This document shows positions 48,749-60,893 of a stretch of DNA of 64,000 bases, one piece after another (the stretch's first letter is position 1; the number at the start of each line of letters is the position of its first letter). The translations under genes were made by a program, and so were the position numbers. Source of the DNA: Hylemonella gracilis ATCC 19624 (GTDB taxonomy: Bacteria; Pseudomonadota; Gammaproteobacteria; Burkholderiales; Burkholderiaceae_C); the NCBI RefSeq assembly GCF_000211835.1, contig NZ_AEGR01000048.1, forward strand, positions 1-64,000, given 5' to 3'. The notes below the pieces were generated by a model. The model was not told the DNA's origin and ran no database searches. It saw only the letters and a program-made list of their open reading frames with translations.

Positions 48749-49717
48749 ATGAACGCCGCCATGAAACAACAGACCCGCCACGCCAAGACGGACAAAAACG
48801 CCAAGACAGGCAAGGCCGCCCAACCGTCGGTCGCCGACGACCTGGGCCTGCGCCCCGGCCAGTCCCTGGAACTGCTGCAAGAACTGCACATCCTTACCCG
48901 CGAAGGCCGCCTCAACCAGGACAGCCGCCGCAAGCTCAAGCAGGTGCTGCACCTGTTCCAGTTCATCGAAGCACTGTTGAAGGAACTGCCGCCCGGCACG
49001 GCGCCCACCCTGGCCGACCACGGCGCGGGCAAGTCCTACCTGGGCTTCATCATTTACGACCTGTTCTTCAAGGCCCTGGACGCAGGGCAGATCTACGGCA
49101 TCGAGACCCGTCCTGAGCTGGTGCAGAAATCGCGCGAGCTGGCCGAGCGCCTGGGCTTCGCGCGCATGCGCTTCCTCAACCTCAGCGTGGCCGAGTCCGA
49201 GCGCGCGACCGAGCTGCCCGCGCGCATCGACGTGGTCACGGCCTTGCACGCCTGCGACACCGCCACCGACGACGCCATCGCCTTTGGCCTGGCCAAGCAG
49301 GCCCGCTTCATGGCCCTGGTGCCCTGCTGCCAGGCCGAGGTGGCGGGCGTGCTGCGCGGCGGCAAGGCCCTGGCCCTGGCGCGCACGCCGCTGGCCGAGC
49401 TGTGGCGGCATCCGCTGCACACGCGCGAGTTCGGCAGCCAGATCACCAACGTGCTGCGCTGCCTCTACCTCGAAGCCATGGGCTACCAGGTGACGGTGAC
49501 CGAGCTGGTGGGCTGGGAGCACAGTATGAAGAACGAACTGATCCTGGCGCGCTACACCGGCCAGAAGAAGCGCAGCGCCGCCGAGCGCCTGCGCGCCATG
49601 CTGGGCGAATTCGGCCTGGAATCCCTGCTGCCCGTGCGCTACGCGCGCCTCGGCCTGGTTCAAGGTGCGGACGCCAGTTCAGACTCGGGCTCAGACCCCA
49701 GCCCGGCCTCCGCCTGA
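48749..49717 (+). CDS. SAM-dependent methyltransferase (Methyltransf_32-type)
   Basis: A 322-residue class I methyltransferase. Motif I is LADHGAGKSYLGF (about 92-104), with the acidic residue in IYGIETRPELV and VVTALHACDTATDDAI as motif IV. These match the Methyltransf_32 group, related to METTL25/GSTCD-like proteins. LVPCCQAEV follows, as in that group. The target is unknown; RNA or protein are the usual suggestions. The N-terminus includes a Lys/Ala-rich stretch encoded by 9-bp repeats. It lies two bases after the DUF1415 gene and ends the long operon-like run. Confidence 0.8.
   Translation: MNAAMKQQTRHAKTDKNAKTGKAAQPSVADDLGLRPGQSLELLQELHILTREGRLNQDSRRKLKQVLHLFQFIEALLKELPPGTAPTLADHGAGKSYLGFIIYDLFFKALDAGQIYGIETRPELVQKSRELAERLGFARMRFLNLSVAESERATELPARIDVVTALHACDTATDDAIAFGLAKQARFMALVPCCQAEVAGVLRGGKALALARTPLAELWRHPLHTREFGSQITNVLRCLYLEAMGYQVTVTELVGWEHSMKNELILARYTGQKKRSAAERLRAMLGEFGLESLLPVRYARLGLVQGADASSDSGSDPSPASA
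48782..48817 (+). repeat. 9-bp degenerate repeat, four units (methyltransferase N-terminus)
   Basis: Units GCCAAGACG, GACAAAAAC, GCCAAGACA and GGCAAGGCC are contiguous and encode the AKTDKNAKTGKA segment. They resemble, more weakly, the arrays inside the MFS gene 1.3-2 kb upstream. Confidence 0.6.
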
Positions 49718-49766
49718 AGCGGCACGTCCAAGCCAACCCAGCGCACCACCAGCAAGGCCTTCCCCC

Positions 49767-50462
49767 ATGGCACGCCTGCCCCGCCTCAGCGTCGCCGGTC
49801 ATGCACACCACGTGGTGCAGCGGGGCAACGACGGCCAGGCCATCTTCCGCGACGAGGTGGACCGGCGGCAGATGCTGCAACTGCTGGAGACGCAGGCGCG
49901 TGAACACCGCGTCGCCCTGCACGCCTACGTGCTGATGGACAACCATGTGCACCTGCTGCTCACCCCCGCCACGGCCGAGGGCCTGCCCAAGATGATGCAG
50001 GCCGTGGGCCGCCGTTACGTGCGCTGGTTCAACGACCGCCATGGCCGCAGCGGAACGCTGTGGGAAGGGCGCTACCGCGCTACCGTGATCGAGGCCGAGC
50101 GCCACCTGCTGCCCTGCATGGCCTACATCGACCTCAACCCCGTGCGCGCCGGCCTGGTGGCCCAGGCCGCGGACTACCCCTGGTCCAGCCACACGCACTA
50201 CATCGGCCAGCGCGCCGACCGCCTCGTCACGCCCCACGCCCTCTACTGGGCCCTGGGCAACACCCCCTTCGCCCGCGAAGCCGCCTACACCCGCCTCGTC
50301 GCCGAGGGCCTGACTCAGCAACAGCAAGAGGCCCTGACCGACTCCGCCTTCAAGGGCTGGGCCCTGGGCGGGCCGGAATTCATGGCTGCGCTGCAGAAGC
50401 AAACGGCGCGGCGGCTGAGCAAGGGGAAGGCGGGGAGGCCGGCGGGGCGGGGGGCGGGTTAG
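49767..50462 (+). CDS. REP-associated tyrosine transposase (RAYT, Y1_Tnp / IS200-like)
   Basis: A 231-residue single-strand DNA transposase of the HUH superfamily. MARLPRLSVAGHAHHVVQRGND is split by the family opening HHVVQRGN. The metal-binding HUH motif is MDNHVHLLL (H60, H62), and Y84 in RRYVRWFN is the likely nucleophile. GTLWEGRYRATVIE and YIDLNPVRAGLV are RAYT hallmarks. RAYTs process REP hairpins rather than carrying IS ends (family knowledge). The frame is open upstream, but the ATG at 49767 fits. The low-complexity tail (KGKAGRPAGRGAG) ends with a TAG lying in a GTTAGAC core at the boundary of the gene cassette array. Confidence 0.9.
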   Translation: MARLPRLSVAGHAHHVVQRGNDGQAIFRDEVDRRQMLQLLETQAREHRVALHAYVLMDNHVHLLLTPATAEGLPKMMQAVGRRYVRWFNDRHGRSGTLWEGRYRATVIEAERHLLPCMAYIDLNPVRAGLVAQAADYPWSSHTHYIGQRADRLVTPHALYWALGNTPFAREAAYTRLVAEGLTQQQQEALTDSAFKGWALGGPEFMAALQKQTARRLSKGKAGRPAGRGAG

Positions 50463-50509
50463 ACGTTGCTTGCATAGCCCGCACACCGATCGCACAAGCC
50501 AAGTTAGTC
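50458..50509 (-). repeat. attC-like site 4, terminal, recombined end
   Basis: On the minus strand a TAAC core (50503-50506 region, holding the TAA stop of cassette D) is followed by TTGGCTTGTGC. That pairs with GCAAGCAA on the other arm if two bases are left extrahelical, as in true attC sites. The expected GTTAG end is replaced by GTCTAAC, which reads GTTAGAC on the plus strand and contains the RAYT stop. It looks like a cassette boundary joined to a secondary, non-attC site. Confidence 0.6.
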
Positions 50510-50671
50510 AAGGTCTTGAACAGGAAACATCTCCTCAAATCTGACCTTTGGGATATTTGAGGGCGTATCAGACTTGCGCCCGTACTGCTGGCATGCGGCG
50601 CATTGTGTGATCCACTTTCTGGCCCTCGTGTCTGCAAGGAACCAGTCTTGTGTCTTCGTTTCTGTCCGCAT
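50504..50671 (-). CDS. Cassette D ORF: 55-residue protein with a CxxC motif, unknown function
   Basis: The product starts MRTETKTQDW, contains WITQCAACQQYG with a single CxxC, and ends FPVQDLD. The ATG lies seven bases after a perfect GTTAAAC core of attC 3 and the TAA stop overlaps the next TAAC core, which strongly supports a real cassette gene despite its size. Aromatic and charged residues are balanced, with no signal peptide or membrane helix. The CxxC could bind metal or be redox active. No family is recognised. Confidence 0.7.
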   Translation of the reverse strand: MRTETKTQDWFLADTRARKWITQCAACQQYGRKSDTPSNIPKVRFEEMFPVQDLD

Positions 50672-50677
50672 GTCGAC

Positions 50678-50765
50678 GTTTAACGCGAAGATGACCGAAC
50701 CACAACACGTTGCGGCGAAGCCGCCTTCTGTTGTTGTGGGTCCGTGTCGATTGGCATGTTAGAGC
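50678..50765 (-). repeat. attC site 3 (cassette C)
   Basis: 88 bp bounded on the minus strand by GCTCTAAC and GTTAAAC (exact GTTRRRY). Imperfect arms CGGACCCACAACA / TGTTGTGG...CGGTC enclose a GC-rich inner stem, GGCGGCTTCGCCGC. The ACACGGACCCACAAC block is identical to attC 1, implying related cassettes. Confidence 0.85.
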
Positions 50766-51079
50766 GGATGCTGACGGAGTAGTGATCCATCGGGATTGAT
50801 CGCCTCCTCGTCACGCCTCGTCGGGTAGTACTTCATTTTCGAGTCAAGCTGATAGAACAGCAGGCCATGAATTCCCATTGCGTCTTTCTTTGGAATTCGG
50901 CGTGTCCAAATCTGCTTGAAAGCACGCCCCAACTCTTCGGCCCGCCCCCTGTCCCAGACTTCGTCAATGAAGGCCACGTCCTGGCCGTCCGGAAAAATCA
51001 GCGAGAACTCTTCGTCCGTCGCTTGGAAGATGTCATAAACGGAATTGTCTGCCCCGTCGATAACCTGGATGTTTTTCAT
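50759..51079 (-). CDS. Cassette C ORF: 106-residue hypothetical protein
   Basis: The protein starts MKNIQVIDGADNSVYDIFQATDEEF, with FPDGQDVAFIDEVWDR and RRIPKKDAMGIHGLLFYQL later. It is soluble and acidic in the first half, basic in the second. It resembles the many small globular proteins found only in cassette arrays, but I know no function. The ATG lies three bases after the degenerate GTCAGAGC core, and its TAA stop forms part of the next core. Codon use and GC differ from the surrounding chromosome. Confidence 0.82.
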   Translation of the reverse strand: MKNIQVIDGADNSVYDIFQATDEEFSLIFPDGQDVAFIDEVWDRGRAEELGRAFKQIWTRRIPKKDAMGIHGLLFYQLDSKMKYYPTRRDEEAINPDGSLLRQHPL

Positions 51080-51081
51080 GC

Positions 51082-51143
51082 GCTCTGACGTTTGAGGTAA
51101 GCGGATGCCGCAGGCAATCCGCGCTTGACTGAAATGTTAGAGC
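51082..51143 (-). repeat. attC-like site 2 (cassette B), divergent type
   Basis: 62 bp with GCTCTAAC at one end and GTCAGAGC (one base off GTTAGAGC) at the other. Arms of the form AAGCG-CGGAT / ATCCGCTT flank a short loop with CTGCGGC. It is shorter and unlike attC 1 and 3 inside, so cassette B came from a different source. Confidence 0.75.
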
Positions 51144-51595
51144 TCATGCCGCACTCCTGCGTGTATGTCGAGCCCGAGCATCATCGGCGGAAACACGTGT
51201 CTAAGCGTCAAGGTCGCACCGGAGCTTAGTACCAAATCAAGTGCAGATACTGCACCTTCACCCATCGAATCCCATGCTCTTACATCGGAGATAGTCGCGG
51301 GCAAAAGGCCCTCAACTTCGACAGGTGTGGCAACAGCGTATTCACAACCGTCCGACCACTTTTGAACTCCAGGCGACTCAGGCCAAACGACTATTTCAAT
51401 CCCTAAGGCTGGATACTGGCCTGGGAGTGGCACCTCACAAGGACGCACTTGAACGCAGGGCGAGTCCGCAAGTTCTAGGTTTGCAGCATAAGTGGCGATC
51501 TGGGGAGTGGAAGCATCGACCCAGGCCGGGTGCGTCCCGACGCTAAGAAGCTTCAGCGAAAGTAGCTGCTGACCAGCGAGGCGCTCGTATTTCAT
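51137..51595 (-). CDS. Cassette B ORF: 152-residue hypothetical protein
   Basis: Starts MKYERLAGQQLLSLKLLSVG and ends HVFPPMMLGLDIHAGVRHEL. Mostly beta-type composition with AVATPVEVEGLLPATISDVRAWDSM in the middle; no signal peptide, membrane helix or catalytic motif that I can name. An open frame extends ten codons upstream to 51625, but that part lies inside attC 1. The ATG at 51595 sits directly after the GTTAGAGC core and is the typical cassette start. The TAA stop overlaps the GCTCTAAC core of attC 2. Confidence 0.8.
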   Translation of the reverse strand: MKYERLAGQQLLSLKLLSVGTHPAWVDASTPQIATYAANLELADSPCVQVRPCEVPLPGQYPALGIEIVVWPESPGVQKWSDGCEYAVATPVEVEGLLPATISDVRAWDSMGEGAVSALDLVLSSGATLTLRHVFPPMMLGLDIHAGVRHEL

Positions 51596-51597
51596 GA

Positions 51598-51686
51598 GCT
51601 CTAACGTTGGAGGCAACTGGACCACAACAGATGCGGCGAAGCCGCAGCCTTCAGTTGTGGGTCCGTGTTGGCCGACCTGTTAAAAC
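51598..51686 (-). repeat. attC site 1 (cassette A)
   Basis: 89 bp bounded on the minus strand by GTTTTAAC and GTTAGAGC. Arms GGCCAACACGGACCCACAAC and TGTTGTGGTCCAGTTGCC pair imperfectly around the GCGGCTTCGCCGC inner stem. The structure and sequence closely match attC 3. Confidence 0.85.
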
Positions 51687-51734
51687 TAAAGCTGCGACCA
51701 TGACCGCATGAGATGTTGGTGCTAAAACGCATCT

Positions 51735-51923
51735 TCACTTCCCGCCAGTGACTGAAAGTTCCAGTGCATCGACCGTTCGATCCACAAAAAGTCGTGTTCC
51801 ATCCGTGAATTCCAACAAGACCTCAGTCGGTCTATTGCGGATCACCTTCGCAATCACTTTTCCACGCAGCATTTCCGATGCGCGTTCCGCTTCATCTTCG
51901 AGCTGAGTAACTTCGCTTGGCAT
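51735..51923 (-). CDS. Cassette A ORF: 62-residue hypothetical protein
   Basis: The product starts MPSEVTQLEDEAERASEMLRG and contains KVIRNRPTEVLLEFTDGTRLFVDR, a predicted helix followed by a small beta sheet. A longer frame starts at 51965, but the ATG at 51923 follows a GTTAAAAC core by two bases, as in the neighbouring cassettes. The stop (TGA, 51735) is 48 bp before attC 1, so this is the only one of the four whose stop is not in the core. Function unknown. Confidence 0.75.
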   Translation of the reverse strand: MPSEVTQLEDEAERASEMLRGKVIAKVIRNRPTEVLLEFTDGTRLFVDRTVDALELSVTGGK

Positions 51924-51943
51924 GAGTTTTAACGTGATATCGA

Positions 51944-51965
51944 CCGCAAAAGTGCGGAATAACAT
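51944..51965. repeat. 22-bp hairpin repeat, copy 1
   Basis: CCGCA and TGCGG arms close an AAAG loop, followed by AATAACAT. A second copy lies 132 bp away at 52076-52097. It is just upstream of cassette A on the minus strand. Confidence 0.7.
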
Positions 51966-52196
51966 GGACTAATGTACATCCTGATGCCTCCCGAATTGCG
52001 AGCTAAGTGCTTGTATTGTTTGGAGAATTCAGATGAATATAACGTGGCGTTGCGTCCGAGACAAACCCTGAAACCTCGCAAAACTGCGAAATAACATTAC
52101 CGCCACTCGTCGACTCGCGAGGTCGAGACAAGCCCTCTTCATTGGGACTCCGGGTCACGCAAAAAACGGACCGCGTTCAAAGTAGGGAAGCAGCTT
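51966..52196. other. Low-GC intergenic stretch between cassette array and chromosome
   Basis: No ORF with recognisable features. It contains hairpin repeat copy 2 and two TAAC-like cores but no complete attC. It probably marks the edge of the inserted DNA; composition returns to the chromosomal type at the next gene. Confidence 0.5.
52076..52097. repeat. 22-bp hairpin repeat, copy 2
   Basis: TCGCA and TGCGA arms close an AAAC loop, followed by AATAACAT. Compared with copy 1 only three positions differ, and two of these are a compensatory pair at the stem base (C-G to T-A), so the fold is kept. Each copy also has a TAACGTG upstream (51930 and 52040). Confidence 0.7.
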
Positions 52197-52682
52197 CTAG
52201 AGCCCGCCCTCGTCTGCTCGCCACACCCCATAAGCCCGCAGCGCCGCCTCAATCTGCATAGCCTCGCTGGTTTCCAACGGGTACAGCCGATAACTGGGCG
52301 CCACGATGGGTTCCACCTTTGTCGCGCGCACCACGAACACGCTGTGGATGGGAAAGCGCTCGCCAGCCATCGCGCGCAGGGGATCGGCCCAGCGGGCGTA
52401 GTCGGCGTCGGAGGGCTGGGCCTCCGTGGCGAGGCCGAGCACCTTGTACCCCTTCTGGGCGAACACGTCGATGAAGCTGAGGCACACCTTGGCGTTGGCG
52501 CGGATGTTCCGGGCCGAGCCTGGCGAGGCGATGTTCGCCACGACGATGTGCTCGCTGTCCAGAACAGCGAATATCTCCTTGGGCGAGACGTTGGGTTGAC
52601 CGGATGCGTCCACCGTGGCGAGCCAGCAGAGCACGCTGCGTTGCGCCATGGCCTGGATGTCGGGACCGAGGAGTTGCTTCAT
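52197..52682 (-). CDS. Pyridoxamine 5'-phosphate oxidase-family (flavin split-barrel) protein
   Basis: A 161-residue protein of the PNPOx-like split-barrel group, with VLCWLATVDASGQPNVSPKEIFAVLDSEHIVVANIASPGSARNIRAN as the typical flavin-site region. Such proteins bind FMN or F420 and act as oxidoreductases or haem-related enzymes; the substrate is not visible. It stands alone, divergent from the DUF2277 gene across 72 bp. GC and codon use are those of the chromosome. Confidence 0.88.
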   Translation of the reverse strand: MKQLLGPDIQAMAQRSVLCWLATVDASGQPNVSPKEIFAVLDSEHIVVANIASPGSARNIRANAKVCLSFIDVFAQKGYKVLGLATEAQPSDADYARWADPLRAMAGERFPIHSVFVVRATKVEPIVAPSYRLYPLETSEAMQIEAALRAYGVWRADEGGL

Positions 52683-52754
52683 ATCGGCTCTGGTTGTTTG
52701 CGCTCAGTCTAGCTAGACTGGCGCGACCAACCGAACGACCACCGACGCCCCACC

Positions 52755-53036
52755 ATGTGCCGCAACATCAAGACGCTCTTCAACTTTGAGCCTCCGGCGA
52801 CCGAGCTGGAGATACGCGACGCCTCGCTGCAGTTCGTGCGCAAGCTCAGCGGCTTCTCGGTGCCTTCGCGCGCCAACGAGGCGGCGTTCAATCAGGCGGT
52901 GGAAGAGGTCGCGGCCACGGCGCGCAGGCTGATGGCCAGCCTGGTTACCCACGCGGAGCCCCGCAATCGGGAGGTGGAGGCGCTCAAGGCCAAGGAAAGG
53001 TCGGCCAAGCGTTTTGGCACGGACGCCTTGTCCTGA
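52755..53036 (+). CDS. DUF2277 domain-containing protein
   Basis: A 93-residue protein beginning MCRNIKTLFNFEPPATELEIRDA, then LQFVRKLSGF, the signature of DUF2277. The biochemical role is unknown. The Cys at position 2 and the RNI-L-NF motif are conserved in the family. It is monocistronic as far as seen, convergent with the DinB gene 84 bp away. That gap holds a CGCCCA simple-sequence run. Confidence 0.92.
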   Translation: MCRNIKTLFNFEPPATELEIRDASLQFVRKLSGFSVPSRANEAAFNQAVEEVAATARRLMASLVTHAEPRNREVEALKAKERSAKRFGTDALS

Positions 53037-53120
53037 CGCCGATCCTGCGGGCCTGCTCGCCCCCGTCCTCGCCCACGCCCACGCCCAACCCCACGCAGGC
53101 CGCGTCCGCAGCCGCCCGGC

Positions 53121-53654
53121 TCACACCTCGTTCGGAATCAGCGTGAACAGATCCGTCACGCCCACATCCACGCCCGCCTGGAACAGCAGGGTGCTGGCCT
53201 GGCCGCGGTGGTGGGTCTGGTGGTTGAAGAAGTGCTGGAGCAGGGCGCCGACGTTGCGGGCCTGTGGCTTGCCCGAGGTGTTGGCGTAACGCAGGGTCTC
53301 GGCCAGGTGCGCGGGTGTGAGTTGCTGGGCGAACTGGAGGATCACGGCGTCGAGCCGCGTGCGGTAGTCCCACAGTTCCGCGAAGGATGCCGCCATGGGC
53401 TCGCGCAGCGAGGTCGGCTTCGGAAAGCCCTGCATCGCTTCTTGCAGCCCGCCCAGTGCCGGGTGCTGCGCGAAACGCTGCAGCCAGATGGTGTCGGCCA
53501 CGGCGAGGTGGTTCAGCGTTTCGTAAAGCGATCCGAAGAAGGCGCCGCGGTCTTGCCGCAGTTGCGCATCGCTCAACTGGCCGGCGGCCTCGTAGAGCTT
53601 GGTGTTCATCCAGCGGTTGTAGTCCGCCATCAGGGTGCAGGAAGCAGGGGTCAT
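53121..53654 (-). CDS. DinB-family protein
   Basis: A 177-residue four-helix-bundle protein of the DinB/YfiT superfamily. The three metal-binding histidines are expected in TLNHLAVADTIW and FNHQTHHRGQ. LMADYNRWMNTKLYEA is the usual first helix. Members include thiol-dependent metal enzymes of unknown substrate. It is about 50 bp from the end of the ArsR-type regulator gene on the same strand, so they may share a transcript. Confidence 0.9.
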   Translation of the reverse strand: MTPASCTLMADYNRWMNTKLYEAAGQLSDAQLRQDRGAFFGSLYETLNHLAVADTIWLQRFAQHPALGGLQEAMQGFPKPTSLREPMAASFAELWDYRTRLDAVILQFAQQLTPAHLAETLRYANTSGKPQARNVGALLQHFFNHQTHHRGQASTLLFQAGVDVGVTDLFTLIPNEV

Positions 53655-53706
53655 GGTCAGGGCAGGGGCGTAGCTTGGACTGAGCGTGGGCTGAGCAGGG
53701 AGGAGG

Positions 53707-54438
53707 CTACGCCATTGTGGGGGCGGCGTCCGCCAGATGGGGCAGCAGTTTCTGCTGCCCGGTGGGTGTCAGCTCGATGGCGCGCCCCGTGCCGCGCCGC
53801 AGCCAGCCGCGGTTCAGAAAATGCTGCAGCAATTCGTCCGCGAGCTGACCGGCCAGATGGTCACGGCGTTCGGACCAATCGAGGCAACGGTAGGCGTAAC
53901 GGCGTTTGCGCGTGGGTTCGGGCGGGGTGAATCCCAGTTCGGCCAGCCAGGCGCGGCCCGCTACGCTGAGTTCAAAACCCTCGGGGTGGGTGCGCAGGCC
54001 CTCGCCTCGCAGCAGGCTGTCGAACAGGCGCACGCCCAGGGCGCCGGCCAGGTGGCCGTAGCAGCAGCGCGCCTGGCGCAGCCGTTCGCGTTCGGGGCGG
54101 GCCCATTCACGTTCATGCACGTCCCGTTCGGCGACCAAGGCCAGCGATTCAAGCGCGTGCGCCACCTCGGCGTCGGCCAGCCGGTAGTAGCGGTGCCGCC
54201 CGCGCTGTTCGCAGACGATGAACTGCGCTTCCAGCATCTTGCCCAGGTGCCCGCTGGCCGTGGCCGGTGTCACCGAGGCGGCCCGTGCCAGTTCACCCGC
54301 GCTGGCGTAGTCGCCCGAGAGCAGGTAGGCCAGCATGCGCGAGCGCGCCGGGTCGGCCACGACGGCCGCCACCCGGGCCAGGCGCGGCTCGTGCGGTGAG
54401 GATGACGGTGCGGACGCGCGGGACGGTGATGGGGGCAT
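53707..54438 (-). CDS. ArsR-type winged-helix transcriptional regulator with C-terminal extension
   Basis: A 243-residue regulator. The winged helix (about 20-100) reads VAAVVADPARSRMLAYLLSGDYASAGELARAASVTPATASGHLGKMLEAQFI. The remainder is an unassigned C-terminal domain (about 100-243) with RCCYGHLAGALGVRL, which holds a vicinal Cys pair that could sense metals or thiols. It begins five bases after the ABM-domain gene, so it likely regulates that small operon. The ligand is not known. Confidence 0.88.
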   Translation of the reverse strand: MPPSPSRASAPSSSPHEPRLARVAAVVADPARSRMLAYLLSGDYASAGELARAASVTPATASGHLGKMLEAQFIVCEQRGRHRYYRLADAEVAHALESLALVAERDVHEREWARPERERLRQARCCYGHLAGALGVRLFDSLLRGEGLRTHPEGFELSVAGRAWLAELGFTPPEPTRKRRYAYRCLDWSERRDHLAGQLADELLQHFLNRGWLRRGTGRAIELTPTGQQKLLPHLADAAPTMA

Positions 54439-54443
54439 GGCCT

Positions 54444-54788
54444 TCAGACCAGGGCTTGCAGGGAATCGCTGGGCGCATTGTCGCGGTCGCGCAGGCCGTA
54501 GTCACGCAGCACGGCCGCCACGCGCAGCCGGTAGTCGGCGAACAGCGCGCTGCGGCCCGCCTGCTGCGCCGCGCGGTGTTGCGTCTGCTGGCGCCAGGCG
54601 CGCACGGCGTCCTCGTCGCGCCAGAAGCTGAGCGAGAGGTAACGGCCGGGGCGCGACAGGCTCTGGAAGCGTTCGACGGAGAGGAAGCCATCGATGCCCT
54701 CCAGCAGGGGCCGCAGCTGCGCGGCCGTGTCGAAGTAGGCCGCTTCGGCGCCAGGCTTGGCTTCCAGTTCGAACAGCACGGCGATCAT
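54444..54788 (-). CDS. Antibiotic biosynthesis monooxygenase (ABM) domain protein
   Basis: A 114-residue ferredoxin-like-fold protein: [61 protein letters not shown] and a conserved HRAAQQAGR helix. Members are small cofactor-free monooxygenases or haem-binding proteins. The ATG overlaps the stop of the NIPSNAP gene. A much longer open frame reading upstream is not used. Confidence 0.85.
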
Positions 54789-55123
54789 GGGCGCACCTGC
54801 CGTGGCTGGTTCAGCGTGCTGGCCACGTCGTCCAGCCAGGTGCGTTCCTCGCGCAGGATGAAGCGCTGCGTCTGCGCCAGCTCGAAGTTGGCCCGTCCTT
54901 CCGCGTCTTGCCGCAGCACCGCGCGGTAACGCTCGTAGGCCGCCAGGTCGTCGAAGCCGATCAGGCCCCAGGCGATGTCGTTCGTGCCCTCGTGCGGCAG
55001 AAAGTAACCCAGCAAATTGCCGCCGCAGCGCGGGATGATGCGGCCCCAGGCCTCGGCGTAGCGCTGGAAGGCGGCGCGCTGGAACGGGTCGATCTGGTAG
55101 CGGATGAAACAGGTGAGGGACAT
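54785..55123 (-). CDS. NIPSNAP-family protein
   Basis: A 112-residue protein of the NIPSNAP group: [66 protein letters not shown]. This is another dimeric alpha/beta-barrel fold related to ABM. Start at 55123 is chosen because the upstream extension to 55264 lacks family sequence. It is the first gene of the NIPSNAP - ABM - ArsR unit; 137 bp precede it before the Nudix stop, room for its promoter. Confidence 0.85.
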
Positions 55124-55260
55124 GGTGCTGGGGCTCCTGAAGTAAGAGCAGGCATTCTGGAAGCCGCCACGCGGGGGATGTTTCGGTGCAGGCCGAAATG
55201 ACGGTGCCGAAACACGCCGAGGTGCTGCAGCAGGCGCCACACGCACTGACCTCTGTGCCC

Positions 55261-55791
55261 TCACTTGGCCGGGATCGCCATCTCCTGCGGGTCGAAGCCC
55301 TTGCCGCGCAGCCAGTCGCGCAGCGCGTACCCGGTCGCGGCGGGCCAGTAGCGGGCCTGCTCGAAGCGCAGGTGCTTGTACTCGGCCAGTTCCTCATTGA
55401 GCCGCACCGTGCCCTCGGCGGGCACGTGGTACGCGATGATCAATTGGTTCATCCGCTCGAAGGTGTAGTGGCCGATGAAGGCCGCGCTCAGGGGCCGCAG
55501 GCTCAGTTCTTCCTCCACCTCGCGCTGCACGGCTTCGTGCGGCAGCTCGTTCTTTTCCAGAAAGCCGGTCACCAGCGCGAAGAAGCCTGGCGGCCAAGCC
55601 ACGTTGCGCGCCAGCAGCAGGCGGCCTTCGTGCTCGACCACCGCGGCCACCACCGGCGTGGGGTTGTCCCACCAGACAAAGCCACAGCCCTCCGCCCGAC
55701 AGAAGCGGCGCGTGAAGCCGCCTTCGACGCGGTCGTGCAGTGGGGCCGCGCAGCGCGGGCAGAACTGGAATTCGGGGGTGGCGGGGGTCAT
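55261..55791 (-). CDS. Nudix hydrolase with N-terminal zinc ribbon
   Basis: A 176-residue protein. The zinc ribbon CPRCAAPL...CRAEGCGF precedes the Nudix box [21 protein letters not shown] (about 76-96), with the GX5EX7REXXEEX pattern intact. The layout resembles NudC-like (NAD-capped RNA / NADH pyrophosphatase) proteins but is shorter, so the substrate is uncertain. The frame is open far upstream; the ATG at 55791 matches the first family residues. Confidence 0.88.
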
Positions 55792-56162
55792 GACGAGGGT
55801 GGGTGCAGGGCTAAAAGGGGTGAGGGAGGGGCGTGGGAGGGGCGTGGGAAGGCAAGCGGGCGTGGCGCAGAGGCCGCCGGGAGCAAAAAACCATCTTCGC
55901 ATGCCGCTGGAGGCCGTTGCCATGGGGGTAAGACGGTCCGCGCGGCACGCAAGTTGCTCAACACTGCGCCCCGGCGAGGTCGAACGGCCGTTGTTGGGCC
56001 GTCTCGCGGGCGGCATTCACGGTTGATCTTTATGTGTCCCCAATTAAATTCCGATCAGAAAACTAGGTCTTTAAATAAGAATCTGACCCCTATTGTTTTC
56101 TTGGAAGCCTACTGAATCTGCTCTATGCTCGGCCCCCTTGTCATGATTAGCAGGAGCAGGCC
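55792..56162. other. Intergenic region before gltB with AT-rich REP-like remnant
   Basis: 371 bp with no gene. 56034-56110 is conspicuously AT-rich for this genome and contains ATGTGTCCCCAATTAAA and AAGAATCTGACCCCTATTG-type strings. These are reminiscent of short sequences scattered near RAYT-type transposases in betaproteobacteria. The gltB promoter presumably lies downstream of it; AGGAG precedes the gltB ATG. Confidence 0.45.

Positions 56163-60893
<4,731 letters not shown>

Follow-up and report, generated by a model that had tools for sequence, protein, structure and literature searches.

An integrase-less cassette array in Hylemonella gracilis ATCC 19624 headed by an attI-like leader that recurs across the genus

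Overview

A 64,000-nucleotide stretch of the genome of Hylemonella gracilis ATCC 19624 (C68:1-64000; hereafter the window), from an assembly of 3.62 Mb in 115 contigs that is 99.55% complete, contains an integron-type array of four small genes on the minus strand, preceded by a leader that resembles the attI site of an integron. The array is a cluster of attC sites lacking integron-integrases (CALIN) with its own attI-type head, and it most probably belongs to a genus-wide family of integron platforms that are dispersed and lack an integrase. The array carries attC sites, no integron integrase gene (intI) was found here or in closed relatives, the head has homology to attI, and it occurs in multiple copies at conserved positions that are mostly followed by different genes. 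An original prediction, made from the sequence of the window, had recognized the cassettes and missed the head, which as a genus-wide dispersed element is the most interesting part of the feature.

The cassette array and its attC sites

The array comprises four small minus-strand open reading frames (ORFs; A to D, 50504-51923), with imperfect inverted repeats and TAAC/GTTA cores visible between the genes and a GC content of 52-56%, compared to about 70% in the flanks. These features, including the sharp drop in composition, had all been described in the original prediction and are present. For the detection of attC sites we used a covariance model (R1) built from 36 sites of integrase-bearing relatives, with the window sequence excluded; its candidates came from loci around intI in genomes of the family and were picked by core motif and arm pairing. 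In an arm check of the alignment, 94.2% of cells were paired; shuffled controls reached 81.8%, and sliding the arms left no more than 41.1%.

Run over the 64-kb window (E-values up to 10, default filters), R1 returned three matches, all on the minus strand and all between array genes. These were the attC of cassette C at 51083-51142, which includes the stop codon of C (41.9 bits, E 4e-8), the attC of cassette D at 51599-51685 (32.6 bits, E 8e-6), and the weakly scoring attC of cassette B at 50678-50765 (16.0 bits, E 0.099 in 64 kb, or 0.003 over 2 kb with filters off). A fourth predicted site, after gene A (50455-50512), found no support in R1. Nine same-genus loci without the array, 103,585 bases in total, gave no R1 match at E up to 1. 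With attC sites in the same orientation at the 3' ends of three of its four genes, one of them weak, the array is an integron gene cassette array. It also qualifies as a CALIN, having at least two attC sites, the threshold given in the available text of PMC9024848, and no integrase nearby. With no intI beside it, the array is not a complete integron. Cassettes without an integrase had been predicted, as either a CALIN or the distal end of a chromosomal integron; the former description is supported, and the latter is not, as the right end of the array is the proximal, attI-type end.

No IntI scored over the TIGR02249 cut-off in the organism's own genome, a result that by itself leaves absence unproven in an assembly that is not closed. 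Partial matches to this family were XerD, a XerC-like gene (best family XerC, scoring just below that family's cut-off) and a further tyrosine recombinase on contig C23. Within the genus, intI was identified in two of 26 genomes (G015 and G023) and in none of those assembled into one contig (G003 and G018) or two (G007); across the family, 128 of 299 genomes carried an IntI over the cut-off. The own genome also holds a second leader-headed, integrase-less array beside queA on contig C60 (L112, 6341-7239), with its own attC site (41.5 bits). The attC search of this genome was not exhaustive, since 150 of 4282 candidates were scored and one window site was missed. It gave, in addition, an attC-like site of 24.9 bits on contig C23 (L114, 8092-8149), where no leader copy was found.

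The attI-like leader

The prediction had placed the feature at 50458-51933. The array does lie there, and the right end of the feature goes on to about 52108, because a conserved attI-like head occupies that region. This leader (51930-52108, minus strand) is the stretch common to copies at other chromosomal sites, of which the genus yielded 49 matches, and it ends at the core; the part shared with other copies has a median of 153 nucleotides (nt) and a maximum of 178 nt. R2, a sequence-only model built from 38 dispersed leader copies with intI-linked sites excluded, scored 105 bits at 51929-52054. All on the minus strand, the leader contains a promoter-like site, TTGTCT-17-TATATT (52036-52064; 9 of 12 consensus matches), a Shine-Dalgarno-like GGGAGG (51987-51992) that lies 7 nt before the leader ORF start and is similar in most copies, and a 16-codon ORF (51929-51979; peptide MYISPCYSALLRSISR) whose stop, TAA, falls within the core. 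The putative crossover core, GTTAAAA(C) at 51927-51933, is where homology with G003 stops. Its seventh base is A and not the Y of GTTRRRY; with that exception, the junction of the array bears a core of the GTTRRRY type. The head was also considered as a REP-type (repetitive extragenic palindromic) palindrome for the neighboring transposase; this idea was dropped because the stem was not kept among the copies compared by eye.

Homology to attI was assessed by running R2 on 52 loci with 41 distinct intI. Three matches were obtained, each of them where attI lies, in G015 (25.5 bits, E 3e-6) and in G192 (20 bits, E 1.6e-4). In G015, an intact intI is followed by the stretch aligning with the leader and then by attC sites; in G192, which belongs to a different genus and whose locus is represented twice, the match lies between intI and the first attC. 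Judged by these alignments, the leader is an attI-type site, homologous to the attI found between intI and the first cassette.

Leader copies across the genus

The 49 matches were distributed over 18 of the 26 genus genomes, with up to six copies per genome. Of these matches, 48 stop no more than 11 nt from the core, and the remaining one is cut by a contig end. The commonest sequence reads TTGTTA-17-TATATT, GGGAGG and a 16-codon ORF (MNIRPCYSALLRSISR), and ends at GTTAGGC. Promoter-like hexamers, read by eye, were missing from a few copies. The leader ORF starts with ATG in 45 of 48 copies (L231, cut by a contig end, was omitted from the leader ORF, flank and integrase-remnant comparisons), the core reads GTTA or GTTG in 36 of 48, and the stop lies inside the core in 31 of 48. 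In sequence, these 31 copies combine a Shine-Dalgarno, a start and a stop completed by the cassette core, the design reported for ORF-11 in class 1 integrons.

Among 22 copies, the shared stretch before the core had medians of 90-156 nt (140-156 nt in 16 of the 22), and homology between different sites mostly stops 90-180 nt from the core. A partial repeat lies just upstream of several leader copies. At L239 (4204-4362) and L235 (4416-4569), the leader is additionally flanked on both sides by direct repeats of 22-27 nt, spaced 132 nt, which might bind integrase or be left over from the spread of the unit. The leader was not found in plasmids. Outside the genus, a strict R2 search of the family identified it in 10 genomes of 7 genera, several of them weakly. 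The 16 of 379 genomes recovered by this search are a lower bound, because strict filters were applied and eight candidates were scored per genome.

The association of the leader with attC sites was examined in 49 copies, namely 48 of the 49 genus matches (G004:C36 was left out) and one from the family search, and was counted over the 42 with at least 800 nt downstream, seven having less. A same-strand attC was detected by R1 within 2.5 kb downstream in 24 of the 42, at 22 bits or more in 21, and within 1 kb upstream in none. Two opposite-strand R1 matches were shadows of the same palindromes.

Conserved positions and differing genes

Grouped by shared upstream flank, 30 of 46 copies fell into eight groups of 8, 5, 5, 3, 3, 2, 2 and 2 genomes, and 16 stood alone. 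Several groups share the downstream flank too, at differing distances from the core: 1478 nt in the window versus 2238 nt in G003, 1004 nt in G013 versus 1283 nt in G015, and 996 nt in G004 versus 2047 nt in G335. Before the shared downstream flank, none of these three pairs had a match of 100 nt or more. G009 and G018 are an exception: starting at the core, the two have their genes in common (91%).

The site of the window illustrates this difference. On its left flank, a REP-associated tyrosine transposase gene (49665-50462, plus strand) is present in 11 of 11 same-genus loci, its last codons differing where the array begins. In nine of the 11, the sequence equivalent to window positions 56024-56235 follows within about 400 bases after the transposase, which indicates that the block 50452-56029 is absent there; the block is present in G003 and G007. 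G003 matches the window up to 50451 and again from 51930, with flanks beyond the array that are 92.5% identical, and between those points it carries about 2.2 kb of other genes, including a trypsin-like peptidase and a DUF5076 protein, with three attC matches (37.4, 22.7 and 22.4 bits). G007 has at this site a P-loop NTPase-like gene (below Pfam cut-offs), an NYN protein and others, with one attC of 36.1 bits. To the right of the array, a flavin oxidase-like gene (window 52197-52682) is largely deleted in G003 (L087, 5800-5940).

Proposed mechanism and known systems

Each platform would consist of a 150-180 nt copy of attI with promoter-like hexamers, a Shine-Dalgarno, a 16-codon ORF and a GTTRRRY-type core. 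An integron integrase acting in trans, either once resident, as it still is in G015 and G023, or temporarily brought in, would insert cassettes at the leader core; failing that, insertion would have been the work of an integrase since lost. The leader would then drive transcription of the first cassette, and translation of that cassette would be coupled to the leader ORF, as suggested by the observation that most cassette cores complete an in-frame stop for this ORF immediately ahead of the cassette start. The analogy is to ORF-11 of attI1 in class 1 integrons, for which the available text of PMC8876359 describes a Shine-Dalgarno and a short ORF across the crossover, a stop that the cassette contributes at positions 3-5 of the core, expression through translational coupling, and amino-acid changes of slight effect only. 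By this analogy, the leader described here may have the same role in expression, the likeness in Shine-Dalgarno, short ORF over the crossover and cassette-supplied stop being one of design; unlike attI1, the leader has no intI beside it. A broader proposal is a distributed integron, in which the unit of attI plus promoter was uncoupled from the integrase and multiplied into fixed docking-and-expression sites whose cassettes are loaded in trans. Our judgment on this proposal is evenly divided.

Parts of this arrangement have precedents. Like CALINs, the array has at least two attC sites, cassettes that all point the same way and no nearby intI; it differs from CALINs in general in that its attI-type head is its own and is itself repeated genus-wide. 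Xanthomonas CALINs occupy seven distinct loci of the chromosome, apart from intI, at positions fairly conserved across species (PMC12444791, available text), which is comparable to the conserved positions reported here, and that text mentions no attI copies at these CALINs, whereas the window array has an attI-type head. A CALIN with its own attI occurs in the Shewanella prophage M16-3, in a genome that also carries a complete integron (PMC9892861, available text). It is thus like the window array in being headed by its own attI, but it is one prophage case, compared to 49 matches here in 18 genomes from different species; no intI was found in 16 of these genomes. Delta-attI-type cassettes likewise hold attI fragments away from the usual place beside intI, replacing attC at the cassette 3' end according to the available text of PMC12901181, whereas the leader copies head arrays at separate loci. 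Hence attI-headed CALINs and conserved CALIN loci are already known, and the new element would be the dispersed attI family. None was found in the literature searched, a search that most subscription papers and bioRxiv preprints lay beyond.

Weighing the alternatives

Several observations weigh against dispersed platforms in the form proposed. No integrase was found in 24 of the 26 genus genomes, which makes current activity doubtful. R1 detected no attC at 18 of the 42 counted copies, and the leader ORF stop lies outside the core in 17 of 48. The promoter-like match in the window is, taken alone, at chance level (0.8 expected by chance in the region), and the leader of G007 at the window's site is only partial. 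R2 did not recognize the attI of 39 of the 41 intI loci, among them that of G258, for which there was a BLAST match only, and a weak one (E 0.026). Selection on the leader peptide is unclear as well, with 64 synonymous differences versus 56 +- 6 expected and 61 of 500 random placements as high, although this agrees with the slight effect of amino-acid changes in ORF-11.

The two main accounts are dispersal of attI units and the loss in place of many integrases. In the latter, each platform would be what remains of a separate complete integron and no attI unit would have moved; degraded integrons have been proposed as an origin of CALINs (available text of PMC9024848). At G009:C24, an intI remnant indeed adjoins the leader copy in integron geometry, divergently oriented (L233, 751-1185), its first approximately 50 IntI residues running straight into the last approximately 20 with the middle gone, and this favors loss in place. 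IntI similarity was significant at this one of 49 loci (48 with a leader and L045, which keeps part of one). With the G015 query, no remnant was found at the other 48 (E up to 1), although many of them cover only about 1 kb upstream. Four further loci at E 0.1-0.9, obtained with composition adjustment off, were taken as chance, and a G307 query returned L233 (E 0.026) and L246 (E 0.53). Dispersal is favored by the shortness of the stretch shared between sites and by the lack of intI traces, and up to six leader copies within one genome also speak against separate losses, which we regard as a possible though doubtful origin of the platforms.

The cassettes could instead have been inserted at unrelated attG sites within a dispersed repeat that merely resembles attI. 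Insertion at attG sites is known (summarized in PMC12444791, available text), but the repeat is homologous to the attI beside intI in G015 and G192 and bears the design of attI1 and ORF-11, which renders this account improbable. Still harder to maintain, to the point of being almost negligible, is the notion that the four are ordinary chromosomal genes in synteny whose inverted repeats arose by chance, synteny in relatives being what the original prediction had named as its own refutation: relatives lack the array genes at this locus or carry others in their place, the R1 scores are significant, and relatives of genes B and D lie in attC arrays elsewhere. The reading of the array as one of a dispersed set of attI-headed platforms is therefore preferred.

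The cassette genes

All four genes lie on the minus strand. Gene D (51735-51923) encodes 62 amino acids; gene C (51137-51592), 151 amino acids from an ATG directly after the core; gene B (50759-51079), 106 amino acids of a widespread family; and gene A (50504-50671), for which the model found no attC at the 3' end, 55 amino acids. Relatives of B were identified at 79 loci among 84,980 species genomes scanned, from Nitrospira to cyanobacteria and Verrucomicrobia, with identities of up to 76% over near full length, some matches being short only. In some genomes of the family, the gene B stretch is identical, over the part compared, to that in records of Acidovorax sp. 210-6 and Rivibacter subsaxonicus, which makes a placement in Burkholderiaceae in the wide sense likely. 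The largest cluster of recurrent neighbors in this family comprised seven loci. Counting the own genome, B is present in 5, C in 3 and D in 4 of 399 family genomes. Relatives of B lie within attC arrays of G182 and G391, with attC at or near some other loci, and directly beside intI in G220 lie two D-like genes, one complete and one cut, with an attC; B and D thus belong to the cassette pool. No attC was found beside relatives of C.

A defense or toxin-antitoxin function, for which the four genes had been considered candidates, gained no support, as A-D matched nothing in Pfam or PADLOC and nothing above the NCBIfam cut-offs. None matched known defense families at E up to 0.1, and matches to PHROGs were weak only. 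Searches of the A-D sequences against the PDB gave no convincing match, and a B-family profile gave one at E 0.97. The predicted fold of B is confident (mean predicted local distance difference test score, pLDDT, 94.6), and against the PDB it had no Foldseek match at E 0.001 and no VIA-align match at Z 2. Rfam, at its gathering thresholds, had no match in the window.

Genes B and D were not found in phages, nor gene C in plasmids; relatives of B and D occurred in nine and three plasmid records, respectively. In one Rhizobium and one Ochrobactrum plasmid, a B relative starts approximately 70 nt downstream of an IS66 transposase gene (L116, L117), and this association is a possible second vehicle for the family. 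In a Leptospira plasmid, a D relative (L118, 3986-4156) comes after an RHS-repeat gene and a DUF6258 gene, a neighborhood that weakly hints at an immunity-like role for the D family.

Among the integrase-bearing loci of relatives, intI lies upstream of dnaE2 (imuC, an error-prone polymerase) on the same strand in 4 of 40 distinct intI loci (L046, 9205-10280; L052, 9384-13490; L063, 1-3976; and L039), with gaps of about 4 nt in G023, 0.1 kb in G187, 0.3 kb in G250 and 1.3 kb in G286. A LexA-like box was read by eye near the intI start of G023, and in the closest cases an SOS operon is possible.

Implications

The usual picture of an integron is a single integrase with a single attI and a single array. 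Most genomes of this genus carry leader platforms without a detectable integrase, and here the capture-and-expression site is a repeated genomic element whose position is kept, whereas the genes that follow it mostly vary from species to species. Dispersed platforms of this kind offer a concrete origin for some CALINs, and they suggest that tools restricted to intI and attC overlook arrays headed by attI. They are, moreover, natural material for the study of trans-acting integrases and of leader-ORF coupling beyond class 1 integrons.

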